DNA of 63,169 bases. Source: a virus. The notes beneath the pieces were generated by a model. It saw nothing but the letters and a program-made list of their open reading frames with translations, made no database searches and was not told the origin of the DNA. Every line of letters starts with the position of its first letter. Positions within the stretch are counted from its first letter, which is position 1. Location: positions 1 to 63,169 of IMG/VR virus record IMGVR_UViG_3300043468_000449; one strand, written 5' to 3'. Shown in pieces: positions 2,181-49,322 of this stretch. The position numbers and the translations under genes are program-made.

Positions 2181-2549
2181 TTATAATTCTCGTAATACGC
2201 AAAAGGCAAGACATCTTTCATGTGCCGATGCGAATACCATTGATATAGGATTGAAAGGAATCCCGTCAACTAATTCTTCACCGAATATTATTTTAGATAA
2301 AAGAGCAGTATACAAATGCTCCTCGTTTTCGCGGAAGTCATCGTAAAAGTCTTGACATAGGTTGAGGTCAGTCATGTAGCTGGGAACCTCGGTAAATACT
2401 AGGTCTGCGCGTGTCCAGACATTTTTTTTGTATTCAAATTTCCATCCCAATTCTGCGGCAATTTCACCATTAACAAGGTGAATGAATGCATCGTGAACTT
2501 CAGTTGTTGCACCATCATTTGGTGCAGAATCCCATATTGATTTATTCAT
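2181..2549 (-). CDS. Hypothetical protein (possible phage ABA-sandwich type)
   Basis: This 122-aa protein overlaps the DnaC-like gene by 4 nt. The C-terminal segment (PISMVFASAHERCLAFCVLREL) resembles the Cys-containing helix ending phage ABA-sandwich proteins, but the central strands are not clearly matched. The function is unknown. It probably belongs to the replication operon. Confidence 0.5.
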   Translation of the reverse strand: MNKSIWDSAPNDGATTEVHDAFIHLVNGEIAAELGWKFEYKKNVWTRADLVFTEVPSYMTDLNLCQDFYDDFRENEEHLYTALLSKIIFGEELVDGIPFNPISMVFASAHERCLAFCVLREL

Positions 2550-3271
2550 ATTTTTATTATAGTTGAGAAGTCTTTAATTCGGCGAAGAATTGGTTGGCGG
2601 CGATCCTCGGAGAGCATTGCTCCAAGCTGAATGCTAGTTGCGTTTGTGGTGATTATCGTGGGTTTCAGATTGGTTGTGCGATGCTCAAGGACATCGTAAA
2701 GTTCAGTCTCACCACGCTCGGTCATCTTTTGCTTTCCAAGGTCGTCTAGGAGCAAGATCGATGTGCGGCGGCATCGTTCCATTGCTTCGATTGCAAAGCC
2801 CTTTTCTTCGGCATTTGAGTGCCATTGATCGGCGGCAAATTTTGCGAACTGGGTCGAAGTCAATCCATAGATTGATCTGCCTTCGTGCGCCATTCGTTTG
2901 AGGATGTGCCAACCTGCACGGGTCTTGCCAGTCCCCGGCTTGCCTTCCATGAAGACTCCAGTCGGGCCGAATTGCCAATTTGTGGCAATTGCGTTTAAAT
3001 CCCCGTGGATGCGTTTTAAATCACTTTCCCTATACAAGGGTGGGCAGATAGCATCAAAAGCGTTTTTAGCCCTGTCCTCGCGCAATTGCTGGGCTTTCCT
3101 GTCCTGCTCTTCCGTTAACTTTTGCTCGCAGTCATTGCATAGCACTTTGAAGTCGAGTGATCGACCGAATAGTGCAATGATCGGAACTTCAAGCACTTCA
3201 AAGCAGTTCTCGCCAGCGCATGGTCGGAGTTCAGTATTCATAGTTTTACCAAGTAAAGTCATAGTCTTCAT
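2546..3271 (-). CDS. DnaC-like AAA+ helicase loader
   Basis: This 241-aa AAA+ ATPase loads the replicative helicase in lambda P/DnaC-type systems. Walker A is GKPGTGKT (110-117) and Walker B is ILLLDDLGK (about 172-180), followed by a sensor-I-like TIITTNAT. An N-terminal four-cysteine set (C18, C23, C45, C48) suggests a zinc-binding domain. It follows directly the DUF1376 gene, giving an initiator-loader pair. A second Met at 3241 gives a 231-aa product that starts 4 nt after the upstream stop; the longer start overlaps by 26 nt. No helicase gene was recognised, so a host helicase is the likely client. Confidence 0.8.
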   Translation of the reverse strand: MKTMTLLGKTMNTELRPCAGENCFEVLEVPIIALFGRSLDFKVLCNDCEQKLTEEQDRKAQQLREDRAKNAFDAICPPLYRESDLKRIHGDLNAIATNWQFGPTGVFMEGKPGTGKTRAGWHILKRMAHEGRSIYGLTSTQFAKFAADQWHSNAEEKGFAIEAMERCRRTSILLLDDLGKQKMTERGETELYDVLEHRTTNLKPTIITTNATSIQLGAMLSEDRRQPILRRIKDFSTIIKI

Positions 3272-4022
3272 TGCGTAACGCAGGTTTTTGTGGTTCTGGA
3301 GCTAGTTCTGTCTGGCATCGATTGAGCCAACCAATGATGAATTTGCGAGTCTTGCGCCTGCCGGGGTGGAGTGCAAGCCATGCGTCCATCTTTCGCAGTT
3401 CCTCGTCAACATCGATGGTTGGGTAATGCCGTTTGATGTCGGCAATCCATGCCTCATCCACGGGTTTTGTTTCACGCTTTGGCTTATCCGATGGCAATGC
3501 CATGGCATCTTCGCCTTCCGCCCCTTCCGCCTTGGAAGGGGTAACAATAGCGTCAGCTATTGTGTTAACGAAGTTTGAAGTATGAAGAGCATCCGTTTGG
3601 CATATGCCAACTGGTATGCCAATTTGATGCGATGGCATATCCGATGGCATATGCGATGGGATATCCCGTGGGATATCCGATGGCATAAAAGTATTCGCTT
3701 TCTGCTGTTTTTGCCATCTTTTCTCTGCATTAGCTTTTTGAGCATTTTTATACTCAATTTGCTTAATTCTTACATCTTCTAATCTGGCATTGCGAAGTTT
3801 ACCATCTTGGCATATGCCAAACTTATGCCGAATAGATGCCACGGCATTCCCATCGCATCCAGCCAATCGTTGCAATTGTGCTTCATCGTCAGGTAAACCA
3901 TCATGTGTCCAACTATAGCAAAGCAGGCGAATATATGCGCCAGTCTCCTCGGCAGACATCATTGCTGTGCCAACAAGGAAATCTTGTGCGTAGAATTGAA
4001 ATGCGGGTGATTTAGATTTCAT
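3246..4022 (-). CDS. DUF1376 replication protein (YdaU-like)
   Basis: This 258-aa protein carries an N-terminal DUF1376 winged-helix domain (AFQFYAQDFLVGTAMMSAEE, then IRLLCYSWTHDGLPDD), the family of phage replication initiators. The C-terminal part (residues about 180-240: HYPTIDVDEELRKMDAWL, then RKFIIGWLNR) resembles the DnaT/YdaU-type tail that contacts the loader. Between them, residues about 112-132 repeat P-S-D/H-I/M in tetrads, encoded by a 12-bp DNA repeat (3630-3689). An origin lying inside the initiator gene is the arrangement known from lambda O. Confidence 0.75.
   Translation of the reverse strand: MKSKSPAFQFYAQDFLVGTAMMSAEETGAYIRLLCYSWTHDGLPDDEAQLQRLAGCDGNAVASIRHKFGICQDGKLRNARLEDVRIKQIEYKNAQKANAEKRWQKQQKANTFMPSDIPRDIPSHMPSDMPSHQIGIPVGICQTDALHTSNFVNTIADAIVTPSKAEGAEGEDAMALPSDKPKRETKPVDEAWIADIKRHYPTIDVDEELRKMDAWLALHPGRRKTRKFIIGWLNRCQTELAPEPQKPALRNEDYDFTW
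3597..3610. repeat. 14-bp palindrome TTGGCATATGCCAA, copy 1
   Basis: A perfect palindrome 19 bp from the iteron array, identical to the copy at 3807-3820. It contains the GGCATAT core of the 12-bp repeats, so the same protein may bind both. A truncated copy (GGTATGCCAA) follows at 3613-3622. Confidence 0.65.
3630..3689. repeat. Five tandem 12-bp iterons (candidate replication origin)
   Basis: Five adjacent 12-mers read CGATGGCATATC (3630), CGATGGCATATG (3642), CGATGGGATATC (3654), CCGTGGGATATC (3666) and CGATGGCATAAA (3678). A degenerate copy is at 3489-3500. They lie within the DUF1376 gene and are flanked by two identical 14-bp palindromes. Iterons inside the initiator gene are the lambda-type origin layout; origin function is inferred. 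Confidence 0.65.
3807..3820. repeat. 14-bp palindrome TTGGCATATGCCAA, copy 2
   Basis: Identical to the palindrome at 3597-3610, on the other side of the iteron array. The two copies are exactly 210 bp apart, close to 20 helical turns, so they face the same side of the DNA. Both are in coding sequence. Confidence 0.65.
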
Positions 4023-4365
4023 TTATTAATTCTGTTAGTTTAAAAGCTGGATGACCTAATTTCCTGATTGCCCTGCATTCAAGTTGCCTGACTCTTTCTC
4101 TACCACTTCCAATTTGTTTTGCGATACATGAAAGTGTTTCAGGGTTGTTTCCAAAAAGACCGAATCTTTTGGTTATTACAAACTGCTCTTTATCTGTTAA
4201 TTTAATAATGCAATTAGATAAAACATTTATTAATGACCCGGTATTTGCATACTCATCAGGAGGAATAACCGATTCATCTTTTATTTCTAATATTCTGTTT
4301 ATGTCAAGATCAAATTCCTCGCAACATAAATTGGTATTTATAATTTTATTAATCATTTCACTCAT
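4012..4365 (-). CDS. Sigma70 region 4-like protein
   Basis: This 117-aa protein consists of a short N-terminal segment and a sigma region 4 domain (residues about 52-108): LTDKEQFVITKRFGL, then ETLSCIAKQIGSGRERVRQL and CRAIRKLGHPA. The spacing and RERVRQLE-type recognition helix match primary sigma factors, including the KLxHP ending. Regions 1-3 are absent. It may compete for or retarget the -35 contact of host RNA polymerase, so it could switch phage transcription. It overlaps its neighbours by 8-11 nt. Confidence 0.72.
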   Translation of the reverse strand: MSEMINKIINTNLCCEEFDLDINRILEIKDESVIPPDEYANTGSLINVLSNCIIKLTDKEQFVITKRFGLFGNNPETLSCIAKQIGSGRERVRQLECRAIRKLGHPAFKLTELINEI

Positions 4366-11915: not shown

Positions 11916-11918
11916 GGG

Positions 11919-11989
11919 TTGCAGGAGAGGGAATCGAACCCTCAACTGTAGGTTATGGGCCTACCGAGATACCTTTTCTCTATCCTGCG
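11919..11989 (-). tRNA. tRNA-Met(CAU), initiator-like
   Basis: The 71-nt cloverleaf has acceptor CGCAGGA/TCCTGCA, D-stem GAGA/TCTC, anticodon stem GTAGG/CCTAC with anticodon CAT and T-arm GAGGG-TTCGATT-CCCTC. C1 faces A72 (mismatch) and the D-stem has A11-U24, both marks of bacterial initiator tRNA. Unusual points: C at position 33 instead of U, a two-G:C rather than three-G:C end to the anticodon stem, a 4-nt variable loop, and an encoded ACCC instead of ACCA end. It may be a mimic or a degenerate copy. Confidence 0.8.
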
Positions 11990-11991
11990 AT

Positions 11992-35710: not shown

Positions 35711-36571
35711 TTAACGAATCCTTCTTGCTTCAATTGTTCCGTAGGCACTTAAAGTTGGTGTACTTCCTCCAAATGTTGCACTACAAACTAAATAAATAGG
35801 CGTAGGTGTACTAGATGTCAAAACAATTCTTTGTCCACGAATTGGAATCCCAATATCACTAGCCGCAGTTGGAACAACTGCCGCCATTACAAGACGAGTA
35901 AATGTATCTTGACCTCCAAGTTGCACAGTAGTTTGACTAATTCCTTGAGTAAGATTTGTAATACTAGCAGTAGAATTTGCTTTATAATTAACTTGTCCAT
36001 TAATATACCATTCTCCTGCTGGCAATGAAATGCTTGTAACATTTGCAATTACTCCAGAAGTTAATGTAACAGCATTTCCAACAGGAATTGTAGATAATAT
36101 GACTTGACCAACAAATCCAGATGCTCCGCTTGATCCATCTGTTACACCATAAATTAATGTGCTTGGTATTTGCGCTCCAGTAGCCCCAATAACAGTTCCA
36201 GAAATAATTGGAGATGTAATTGTTGCTCCAGATGAAATCGTGACTGGAATTGAAATATTAGAAGAACCATCAAAAGATGTTGCCGTTCCAGTTATTGCTC
36301 CAGAAATAGCAATTGTTCTTGGTGTAGATAAAGTTGATGCTGACCCTCCAGCATTGCCAGTAACATTGCCAGTAACATCACCAGTAACATTGCCAGTAAC
36401 ATTGCCAGTAACATCACCAGTAACATCACCAGTAACATTGCCGCTTAAATTTCCAGTAACATTACCAATAATTGAATTAGTAAATGTTTTATTACCAGTA
36501 ATTGTCTGCGTTGTATCTGTCGTGCAGATATTTGGGCTAATTACTGCTTGAGTTGCTTTTCGTAGTGGCAT
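35711..36571 (-). CDS. Tail-fibre-like protein with VTG repeats
   Basis: This 286-aa protein starts MPLRKATQAVISPNICTTDT, a virion-attachment-type N-terminus shared with the 394-aa gene. It then has eight NVTG/DVTG-type tetrads (about 37-74) and a beta-rich C-terminal domain (TPTPIYLVCSATFGGSTPTL). The DNA repeat (36358-36458) would favour slippage or recombination. Confidence 0.6.
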   Translation of the reverse strand: MPLRKATQAVISPNICTTDTTQTITGNKTFTNSIIGNVTGNLSGNVTGDVTGDVTGNVTGNVTGDVTGNVTGNAGGSASTLSTPRTIAISGAITGTATSFDGSSNISIPVTISSGATITSPIISGTVIGATGAQIPSTLIYGVTDGSSGASGFVGQVILSTIPVGNAVTLTSGVIANVTSISLPAGEWYINGQVNYKANSTASITNLTQGISQTTVQLGGQDTFTRLVMAAVVPTAASDIGIPIRGQRIVLTSSTPTPIYLVCSATFGGSTPTLSAYGTIEARRIR

Positions 36572-37786: not shown

Positions 37787-40702
37787 TTAGGCTATTGAAA
37801 GTGATATGATGTTAATTTCTGATCCACTTGGAACTGGTTGACTGAATGTTAATGTTCTTGGTGTAACATTATCAATTGTATAGTTTGTTGTTTTTTGTAC
37901 GATACCATCAATAGTTACAAGGTAAGCTGGAGAAAGTATAGACAATCCTCCAGTAATTGCAAATATAGTTTGAGTTCCATTTCCAATGTAAGACCATGCA
38001 TTGCCAAAATTGGATGGAGGCAGTTCTGCACTTCCAGTAGCTCCTTGAAATCCAGTAGCTCCTTGAAAACCAGTTGATCCAACTCCTGTTGCACCAACTA
38101 ATCCAGTTGCGCCAACCAAACCAGTTGCGCCAACTAAACCTGTAGCTCCAGTAGCTCCTGCTCCTGTCGCTCCAATTAATCCCGTAGCTCCAATTAATCC
38201 CGTAGCTCCAATAAAACCTGTGGCTCCAACAAATCCAGTAGCTCCAATAAAACCTGTCGCTCCAACAAATCCAGTAGCTCCTATCGGGCCTACAATTGGT
38301 CCTACATTAACCCATGTTCCAGAACTTTTTACCCACAAATTACCAGTATCTAAAGCAATTACCCCATTTCCATTAATAGCAGATGGAAATGCAGTATTAA
38401 GCGTAGCTTGCGGGTCTGCACCTACAGTTGGAACATTTCCAATAATTGAAACAGAAGTGCCATCATTTCCTTTTTCTCCAGTAGCTCCGACAAATCCAGT
38501 TGCCCCGACAAATCCAGTTGCCCCGATAAATCCAGTAGCTCCAATTTCTCCAGTAGCTCCAATGAAACCAGTCGATCCAACTAATCCCGTGGCTCCAATT
38601 TCTCCAGTAGCTCCGACAAGTCCTGTAGCTCCAAATTCTCCAGTAGCTCCGACAAATCCAGTTGCACCTTGAAATCCTGTCGCTCCGACTAATCCTGTGG
38701 CTCCAACCGATCCAGTTGCGCCAACTGCTCCAGTTGCGCCAATCAAACCTGTAGCTCCGACCGATCCAGTTGTGCCAACTGCTCCAGTTGCGCCAATCAA
38801 ACCTGTAGCTCCGACTGATCCAGTTGAACCAACTGCTCCAGTCGATCCAATTAATCCAGTAGCTCCTTGAGTTCCTATGCCTGTTGCTCCTTGCGAACCA
38901 TTTAAACTAACAATAACAATTTGCGATCCATCAGGGATGGCAGTTGACATTGTTAGCGTAGTTCCGCTAATTGTATAATTATTTGGGTCTTGAACAATTC
39001 CATCTATAGCAATTAAATAGGCAGTAGATAAATTAGTTATCGCTCCAATTATAGTATAATTAGTTTGTAGCCCATCTCCAATAAATGACCATCTAATTCC
39101 TCCTGCTGGAGCGGCACTTCCAGTTGCGCCAACTAAACCTGTAGCTCCAATTGATCCACTAGCTCCTGTCGCTCCCGTCAATCCTGATCCAGTAGCTCCT
39201 GTAGCACCTTGCGATCCTATCCCTGTAGCTCCTGTTGCTCCGTTACCTGTAGCTCCAGTCAATCCAATTCCCGTTGCACCAGTTGATCCAATTGATCCTA
39301 CTCCCGTTGCACCAGTTGCGCCAATTCCAGTTGATCCAGTTGCTCCTTGCGTTCCAATTCCTGTTGCACCAGTTGCGCCAATTCCAGTTGATCCTCGCAA
39401 TCCTGTTGCTCCTTGCAACCCAATTGCGCCTGTCGCGCCTGTGGCTCCAATCGGTCCTCCACTTGGCCCAGTCGATCCTTGAAAACCAGTTGCTCCTTGT
39501 AGACCTATTCCAGTTGCACCAGTTGAACCAATTAATCCTACTCCAGTTGCACCAGTTGCTCCAATTGATCCTACTCCAGTTGCACCAGTTGCTCCACTAC
39601 CTGTTGATCCTTTTTGTCCTGTAGCTCCAATAAAACCACTTGCTCCAGTTGCTCCGATTGGCCCAATACCTCCATCACCAGTAATCCCAATCATCCAGTC
39701 AGCAAAATTCCCTGCTCCTTGAATAGTATCAACCCATAAACGAACCCATGAATTATTTACTTCCATTACATTTCCCTCGACCCAGTCATAAGGGTATGCA
39801 GAATTAGCTACTGCGCGAAGTCGAGTTCCGTATGTCCATCCAATGTCGGCTGAAGGAACATAATCAAATTGTTTTAATCCTGTTGTAATGTCGTGAGCAG
39901 TAAAACTTTGACGAGTAATGACTGGAGAAATTCCGCTTGCTCCCGCGCTTCCCCTGAAACCCGTGCTACCAGTCGCGCCAACAGGTCCAATAAGACCTTG
40001 CAAACCAGTAGCACCAGTCGATCCGATTCCCGTTGCGCCAACTGGACCTATATTTCCCGTGGCTCCAGTTGCGCCAGTTACACCTAAACCTGTCGCTCCA
40101 ATCGGCCCTGTGCTTCCTGTGGCTCCAATTGGGCCTGTGGAACCAGTTGATCCAACGCCAGTTGCGCCTGTTGATCCAGTTGCTCCGAAACCAGTTGCGC
40201 CAGTATCTCCCTTTAATTGCAATTGAACAACAGTTAAGTAACTTCCAATTGGAACAATAGCATCAGTAAATGTTAATACAGGAGGCAATGTTGAGCTAAT
40301 TGTATAAGTAATTGGGTCTTGAACAACTCCATCCACATATACTAAATATGCGCTACTATATGTATTTGTTGCTCCAGTAAGCGTGAACGATGACCCATTA
40401 TTTCCATCAAATCCGATTCTATAAAATGGACTTAAATTACTAATTTGATTATTAAAGACGCGAATTAAATAACACAACAATCCTTCACCTTCTTCGCGAG
40501 GGATATCGTCAACTTCTGCTGTATTATTAGGATCACATGGAATATCCCAAACCACCCTTCCATTAACTACACTTTTTGTAATATCCCCATAAAGAGCATA
40601 AACAAGATTAGAGATTAAAGAAGGAACGCTTTCAGGAGAAACTTGTGGATATGGAATATCCTGACGGCAGATGTTGTTGTAGTTATCGTTGTTGCAACTC
40701 AT
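37787..40702 (-). CDS. 971-aa collagen-like fibre protein
   Basis: It has an N-terminal attachment-like region (about 1-90: [20 protein letters not shown]), then alternating collagen-like G-x-T/G-A-T arms and three copies of a beta domain ([39 protein letters not shown]). Gly-x-y triplets form triple helices in phage fibres. The triplets GATG, GSTG and GPIG vary by few bases, so copy number may change. Confidence 0.7.
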
Positions 40703-44033: not shown

Positions 44034-45881
44034 TTAGAAATATGTAGTAACAATGACGATTCCTTGCGCTCCGTTTCCGCCAGCACCAGAAGTTAAAACG
44101 CTTCCTTGGGTTCCTTGGCATCCACCACCACCACCACCACCTCCATAAAGCCCCCCATTTCCACCCCTGCCAGCATTAACAGTTACACCACCAGCACCAC
44201 CACCAGCACCCCCGCCAGCGTGAATAAATGATCCCATAGAAGTTCCATTTGCCCCAGCCGCTCCCTCGGTTTGTCCTCCTAATGCTTGGCCTCCAGATGT
44301 AGAAGGATTGTTTCCGAGAACCCATTGACCATTCCCTCCGATAAACCATGACCCAGAAAGATTGCATCCACCACCCGATCCGCCACCAGCGGCAGAAATT
44401 AAAGTAGTCCCACCAGCACCTCCAGCACTTGCTATTGAACCAGTTCCGCCAGCACCTCCGGGGTTTACATTTCGTCCATTTGATCCACCTCCACCTCCAG
44501 AAGATCCAGAGCCAGTTCCTCCTCCACCTCCTCCAGCATAAACCCAAGGAGAAAACGCACTTCCTCCAATTGCTCCAAAACTTGAATCTCCACCAGCGGT
44601 TCCAGCAAGTCCTTGTGCGTTAGGGCCAGTAACAGCATTTCCTCCAGTCCCGCCAGCACCAACTGTTACAGCTTCGGTGGCAAGCAGAGAAGAAGCGGGG
44701 ATTTGTGTTCTAAAAGTTAAGCCACCACCAGCACCTCCACCTCCACCGATTTGACCAGCGTTGACTCGTCCAGATGCACCTCCACCACCACCTGCGATGA
44801 CAAGAACATCTACCGATCTTGCTCCCGCTGGCTTCGTCCAAGTGCCTGACGAGGTAAAGATTTGAACATCCGTAGGTGTTGATGTTCCAGCAGGGCCAGT
44901 TGCACCTGTAGCCCCAACGCCAGTTGCGCCTGTCGCGCCATTATTGCCAGCAACGCCAGTTGCGCCTTGAGGCCCAAGCTGGTTATACATCACTTGCATT
45001 ACTGTGATGATTACTGATGGTATCGCAGGAGCGGGTGAGACTGCTGTATTATGGTCGATGCCGATGTTTGTATTGTCAGTTGACCACATCAACTGGAAAT
45101 TATCTCCAGAAACAAAGTTGTCCATGAAGTCCCATGCCGCTACTACATAAGGATTATTCGTGGGAACAGATATACGGGTAGCGGAATCTGGAAGATCGGT
45201 TCCATTTTTACGGAACCAGATTTGAACAGTATTACCAGAACCTCCACCACCATTGTTATGAAATTGTGCAGAGAACTGAATGTCGTATGTTCCCGGCGAA
45301 GTAAAAGTAATTTGTGATCCACTAACTACCGAAATGCCATTTTGTCCAATGACATTATTTACTGTCATGGCATATGCGGTATTGGCCGCAACAGCAGTTT
45401 GATCTACATTGCTGAAATACGATCCATAAAAACCAGATGCACCACCAGCACCAGCAGGGCCAGTTGAACCAGTTGCTCCTTGAATACCTATTCCAGTTGA
45501 GCCAGTTGCGCCAATTTCCCCAGCAACGCCTGTGCTTCCTGTGGCTCCGATTGGCCCTGTGCTTCCCGTGGCTCCGTTTAATCCAGAAATACCCGTGGCT
45601 CCAGTACTTCCAACTCCCGTGGCCCCGACTGGGCCTGTGCTACCCGTGGCCCCGATGCTTCCAACTCCCGTGGCCCCGACTGGCCCGGTACTTCCCGTGG
45701 CTCCGACTGGCCCGTCCACGCCCGTGCTTCCTGTCGCTCCCTGTACACCTATTCCTGTGCTACCCGTGGCTCCAACTGGCCCTCCACTTGGCCCAGTTGC
45801 GCCAGTCGCTCCAATTGCGGCAGTCGATTGGCTACTAGTAAAATCAAGTTTACCAGTAAATGGATTAAATGTAAGTGCCAT
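44034..45881 (-). CDS. 615-aa collagen-like fibre with jelly-roll and Gly-rich tip
   Basis: The N-terminus [19 protein letters not shown] is the attachment peptide shared with the esterase fibre. A collagen-like G-x-T arm (about 23-145) leads to a C1q-like beta domain ([40 protein letters not shown]), a second short G-A-T arm, and a Gly-rich C-terminal domain ([20 protein letters not shown]). Gly-rich C-terminal domains can form polyglycine-II receptor-binding tips. Confidence 0.68.
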
Positions 45882-49237: not shown

Positions 49238-49322
49238 TTGCGTAGGTGGGACTTGAACCCACACTCCGTTTTCACGAAATCGGATTTTAAGTCCGATGCG
49301 TCTGCCATTTCGCCACTACGCA
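49238..49322 (-). tRNA. tRNA-Leu(UAA)
   Basis: The 85-nt gene has acceptor TGCGTAG/CTACGCA, D-arm, anticodon stem TCGGA/TCCGA with loop CTTAAAA (anticodon TAA), a long variable arm typical of class II tRNA, and T-arm GTGGG-TTCAAGT-CCCAC. CCA is not encoded. It is located between the scaffold and glycosyltransferase genes and would decode UUA and UUG. Confidence 0.9.

Follow-up and report, generated by a model that had tools for sequence, protein, structure and literature searches.

Introduction

In phage lambda and systems of its type, the replication origin lies midway along the initiator gene O, with iterons followed by a low-GC stretch and the helicase loader gene P adjoining (PMC7466680, PMC6022878, PMC5043065). 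The RepA_N initiators, exemplified by that of pSK41, likewise use sites within their own gene, their winged-helix N-domain binding four Rep boxes central in rep (PMC5703833). For the Acinetobacter phages Brutus and Scipio of the genus Obolenskvirus, one sentence in the literature notes that a replication gene contains repeats with a possible link to the origin (PMC10888812), and we find a DUF1376-type gene in Scipio. Among papers that name DUF1376, taken at the level of titles and abstracts and with few subscription journals covered, we found none that treats DUF1376 origins as a class. Similar cases may be covered in Weigel and Seitz's 2006 review of replication modules in phages.

Here we analyse a 63,169-nt IMG/VR virus record, IMGVR_UViG_3300043468_000449, the whole of which constitutes the window referred to below. 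A first-pass annotation had proposed an iteron origin inside a replication initiator gene, with the layout of lambda O and accompanied by an unusual pair of palindromes. We believe that the first part of this reading, which places an origin with iterons within the initiator gene in the manner of lambda O, is well supported by sequence comparison, and that the palindrome pair should be given up as a functional unit.

Results

The putative initiator gene and its neighbourhood

The putative initiator belongs to the DUF1376 family, as had been suggested: residues 8-83 match PF07120 (Pfam, E 2.2e-11) with 44.4 bits against a curated cut-off of 30.1, and the gene also matches primosomal-protein PHROGs. 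DUF1376 was the only Pfam assignment, and the search returned neither lambda O homology nor a RepA_N domain. The DnaC/IstB-like helicase loader gene lies directly downstream, as in lambda-type systems, and overlaps the end of the DUF1376 gene (Table 1). RecT-like and exonuclease-like genes are found nearby, as is a gene for a sigma-region-4 protein that could be a phage transcription factor.

For the first 24 kb of the record, the phage collection contained no near DNA match. Elsewhere in the window there are two tRNA genes on the minus strand, tRNA-Met (CAT) at 11916-11990 and tRNA-Leu (TAA) at 49238-49322, as well as long 9/18/27/33-bp repeat arrays at 38033-40201 and 44895-45744 that have a collagen-type coding look and probably lie in structural genes. 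Outside the replication region, a 12-bp tandem repeat, CATTGCCAGTAA, occurs ten times at 36352-36471 with a 36-bp higher unit.

Table 1. Positions of the genes and sequence elements of the putative replication region in the window.
Feature	Position	Strand	Details
DnaC/IstB-like helicase loader gene	2546-3271	minus	PHROG 50, E 4e-21
DUF1376 gene, putative replication initiator	3246-4022	minus	258 aa
Small protein, sigma-70 region 4 only	4012-4365		PF04545, E 7e-10; directly upstream of DUF1376 gene
Extra iteron-like sites	3486-3508		ATGCCATGGCAT (3497-3508), TTGCCATCGGAT (3486-3497); missing in L006
Invariant block, 69 nt	3542-3610	minus	gene nt 413-481; the same in every distinct relative, with a run of 22 codons free of change
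Inverted repeat, perfect 8-bp stem	3544-3563		ACAATAGC-GTCA-GCTATTGT; end of invariant block
Degenerate 7-bp tandem repeat	3567-3587	minus	CTTCATA CTTCAAA CTTCGTT; region P about 0.006
Palindrome TTGGCATATGCCAA	3597-3610		two converging iteron-like half-sites; kept in all relatives
Iteron array, five in-register 12-bp units	3627-3686	minus	linker residues 113-132
Least stable 40-bp stretch of gene	3744-3783		30% GC; other side of array from 7-bp repeat
Second palindrome copy	3807-3820		intact in this genome only; half-site in relatives
Extra iteron-like sites	3836-3858		ATGCCACGGCAT, TTCCCATCGCAT; other variant in relatives

The iteron array is constrained as DNA

On the gene strand, the five units of the array read, in order, ATGCCATCGGAT, ATCCCACGGGAT, ATCCCATCGCAT, ATGCCATCGGAT and ATGCCATCGCAT, with the consensus AT(G/C)CCA(T/C)(C/G)G(C/G)AT, and they encode MPSD/IPRD/IPSH/MPSD/MPSH, which is the repeat previously described as PSDI/PSHM tetrads, read in another phase. 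That the repeats are real is indicated by their in-register units, by the TRF call (3630-3687, 4.8 copies, 82% match), and by synonymous-codon shuffling, in which none of 5000 shuffles reached the observed repeat score of 31 (mean 15.7, maximum 29; P = 2e-4). The 63 kb hold 23 sites scoring at least 9 bits with the iteron profile, 16 of them inside the DUF1376 gene, versus 4-9 in whole-window shuffles.

Seven close loci, with 80-98% protein identity, were available in IMG/VR, two of them covering part of the gene; four are alike over the gene and one (L009) is a fragment, leaving three distinct relatives (L003, L006 and L007). Each of the three keeps all five repeat units. Across the 20 units of the window and these relatives, the protein-neutral wobble positions carry A in 19 of 20, G in 20 of 20 and T in 20 of 20, that is, 59 of 60 such bases are unchanged, and the remaining variation in the array falls at one third position (a Met/Ile change) and at first and second codon positions. 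In pairwise comparisons, synonymous codon changes in the array number 0-1 and non-synonymous ones 2-4, against 25-44 synonymous and 10-48 non-synonymous changes in the rest of the gene, where the two are about even or mostly synonymous. With the neutral wobble bases almost fixed, the coding positions variable, and the repeat score never reached by shuffling, the alignments argue that the array is selected as DNA while the peptide is free. The first-pass annotation had proposed comparing relatives at the DNA rather than the protein level, and the outcome is the opposite of scrambled repeats with conserved tetrapeptides.

Palindromes, an invariant block and candidate unwinding elements

The two identical 14-bp palindromes reported earlier are present, 210 bp apart, with no other copy of TTGGCATATGCCAA in the 63 kb. 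The window contains five perfect 14-nt palindromes, roughly the chance number, and at least two within the DUF1376 gene would be expected with P = 0.0036 under synonymous shuffling. The exact pair is unusual in this genome. In every relative, the 3807-3820 site reads TTGGCATATGCGA, and comparison of the sequences thus indicates that this copy is probably not functional as the member of a pair.

The 3597-3610 copy, by contrast with its partner, opens the 69-nt invariant block, within which the 7-bp repeats and the hairpin are also found. The run of 22 unchanged codons has a permutation P of 7e-5, and L006, which is 82% identical elsewhere, is an exact match up to the end of the block, where it diverges. 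The invariance could in part reflect recent exchange among these phages, of which three are distinct relatives. L006 parts abruptly from the other relatives just past the conserved hairpin, at gene nt 482 (locus 3482) and beyond, and this point is likely a recombination junction. The block, its 7-bp repeats and its hairpin, like the family-wide pattern described below, do not appear in the first-pass annotation.

The hairpin at 3544-3563 scores z -4.9 as single-stranded DNA; an intrinsic terminator was considered and rejected, there being no T-run after the stem on either strand. The 7-bp repeat is a candidate unwinding or single-strand-binding element, and a possible counterpart of the 6-8-bp arrays in other DUF1376 genes. 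The stretch at 3744-3783 is a candidate alternative unwinding element. These two, the former taken with its flanks, are the candidates for an AT-rich tract beside the iterons; neither is extreme, and 3744-3783 is the less stable. GC skew, put forward as a further check on the origin, was uninformative, giving no clean origin signal.

Predicted structure of the putative initiator

AlphaFold2 predicts a confident N-domain (residues 10-112; pLDDT 87 when modelled alone), a disordered linker (117-186) and a small helical domain (190-240), and the codons of the linker are those holding the array and the 69-nt block. The predicted topology of the N-domain fits a winged-helix-like fold. PDB fold searches with the full model and with the domain alone returned mostly winged helices as top matches, the best at E 0.09, with none below 0.08 and none significant; the nearest structures, all at this non-significant level, include MarR-type regulators, ORC, DnaD and 4pql, the last of which is probably a RepA_N domain. 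A PDB sequence search with the family profile gave no match.

A two-part repeat pattern across the DUF1376 family

We assembled 53 dissimilar DUF1376 genes by protein similarity, blind to repeats, from phages of alpha-, beta- and gamma-proteobacteria, Bacteroidota genomes and uncultured phages; owing to kinship within groups, the 53 are not fully independent. With repeats called at a synonymous-shuffle P of 0.01 or below, 7-bp repeats occur in 26 of the 53, compared with 2 of 112 control ORFs taken mostly from the same loci, and 11-bp repeats in 18 of the 53, compared with 1 of 112. No period-13 repeats were called at this threshold among the 53.

Nearly all of these arrays begin just past the DUF1376 domain: significant 7-bp arrays start at nt 348-456 in all cases, and 11-bp arrays at nt 318-362 in 15 of 18. 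In genes where the two arrays can each be resolved, the short one is 3' of the iterons, usually 0-14 nt away or overlapping the iteron end, and never before them. Of 27 short arrays, 23 have a GC content below that of their own gene, and in most of the arrays one or two of the bases are nearly absent. In Sinorhizobium phage phiLM21, for example, TTCAACGGACG is repeated 3.5 times and followed by 4.6 copies of AAGCCAG, and in Bordetella phage IFTN2 an 11-bp array is followed by AACCAG repeats. The pattern is found in each main group counted separately, and clear repeats are absent from six DUF1376 genes (about a tenth), one of them truncated. In annotated relatives, the next gene often encodes a DnaB helicase, an IstB/helicase loader or replication protein P.

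In one Bacteroidota genome (L055), a DUF1376-like gene carries GGTTCAACCAAC-type repeats at gene nt 218-288, inside the domain region rather than the linker. Bacterial homologues were absent when the genome collection was scanned with the close-family profile; a looser one picked up a single homologue, from an Allomuricauda genome, and PF07120 is present in 3 of 297 sampled genomes of that phylum.

The family also has a member in E. coli K-12, where the DUF1376 gene ydaU of the Rac prophage stands directly before ydaV, which encodes a putative ATP-binding protein. In the ydaU linker, a repeat period of 23 is seen (P 0.006), along with weaker 11- and 12-bp signals (P 0.06 and 0.04, respectively), all of which, with many periods tested, serve as a lead only. 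The literature searched describes no origin for Rac ydaU-ydaV.

Discussion

Because the array is constrained as DNA, the 69-nt block is unchanged, both occupy disordered-linker codons, and a DnaC-like loader gene comes next, we consider it highly probable that in this phage the replication origin lies within the sequence that codes for the initiator, a system working much as lambda O/ori or RepA_N do with a different protein family. By analogy with such systems, we infer the following steps of binding, opening and loading. The N-terminal winged-helix-like DUF1376 domain would bind the TTGGCATATGCCAA palindrome as well as the 12-bp iterons, with the bound initiator wrapping or bending the DNA. 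The strain may then open the adjoining low-stability stretch with its 7-bp CTTCANA repeats, allowing the C-domain and the DnaC-like loader to load the DnaB helicase of the host onto the strand so exposed.

It is very unlikely that the array is instead an operator, bound by the DUF1376 protein or another phage regulator to regulate transcription of the replication operon, with the origin elsewhere. Palindromes and direct repeats would suit an operator as well, and a sigma-region-4 protein is encoded just upstream, but the array sits in mid-gene, far from where the operon begins, direct repeats with short low-GC arrays after them recur family-wide beside helicase or loader genes, and lambda and RepA_N provide precedents for origins at such positions (PMC7466680, PMC5703833). 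Equally, we give little credence to the idea that the repeats came about as a by-product, through slippage and expansion of a low-complexity peptide linker, its PSDI/PSHM tetrads being reflected in DNA of no function of its own. A period of 12 is a multiple of 3, the linker is predicted to be disordered, and tandem duplication alone can yield similar units; nonetheless, it is the protein-neutral positions that are conserved and the coding positions that vary, and other DUF1376 genes have 11- and 7-bp periods at the same place, where a peptide repeat cannot be the explanation since neither period is a multiple of 3. That the array and the two palindromes form a looping unit, spaced by the roughly 20 helical turns noted in the first-pass annotation, is scarcely credible, for all the improbability of two identical palindromes under synonymous shuffling, as all three distinct relatives keep the downstream copy and have the upstream one broken, so that the 210-bp spacing is not conserved.

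Returning to the embedded origin, we think it likely, if less firmly than for this phage itself, that the DUF1376 family as a whole consists of origin-carrying phage initiators sharing a two-part origin in their linker codons, in which 11/12-bp iterons serve duplex binding and a low-GC, strand-biased 6-8-bp array after them serves unwinding or single-strand binding. The repeat sequences would turn over completely from phage to phage while architecture and position stay. If this is true, a widespread phage gene listed in Pfam as of unknown function gains one, and the sequence alone could suffice to place origins in many uncultured phages, the present one among them. The family claim lends itself to a simple test, given that E. 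coli K-12 carries a DUF1376 member in Rac ydaU-ydaV.

Among known systems, lambda O/ori-lambda and its Stx relatives are alike in having repeats in the initiator gene and the loader gene adjacent. The lambda repeats, however, are 18-bp hyphenated inverted repeats, whereas those in the window are 12-bp direct repeats and only partly symmetric; O and P are replaced by DUF1376 and a DnaC/IstB-like loader; and where lambda has a 39-bp AT-rich tract, the window has a 7-bp repeat and a conserved hairpin block. RepA_N initiators such as that of pSK41 similarly bind repeats inside their own gene, as is predicted here, but they belong to Gram-positive plasmids and bind DnaG primase through their CTD, whereas the window protein lacks a RepA_N Pfam match and its match to 4pql is non-significant. 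Rac ydaU-ydaV has the same gene order as the window, with repeats that are weaker and unrelated in sequence, and the Obolenskvirus report concerns one genus, in contrast to the DNA-level test and family-wide pattern given here. An origin within the initiator gene is thus of a kind already known from lambda and RepA_N, and what would be new here is the variant built on the DUF1376 family.
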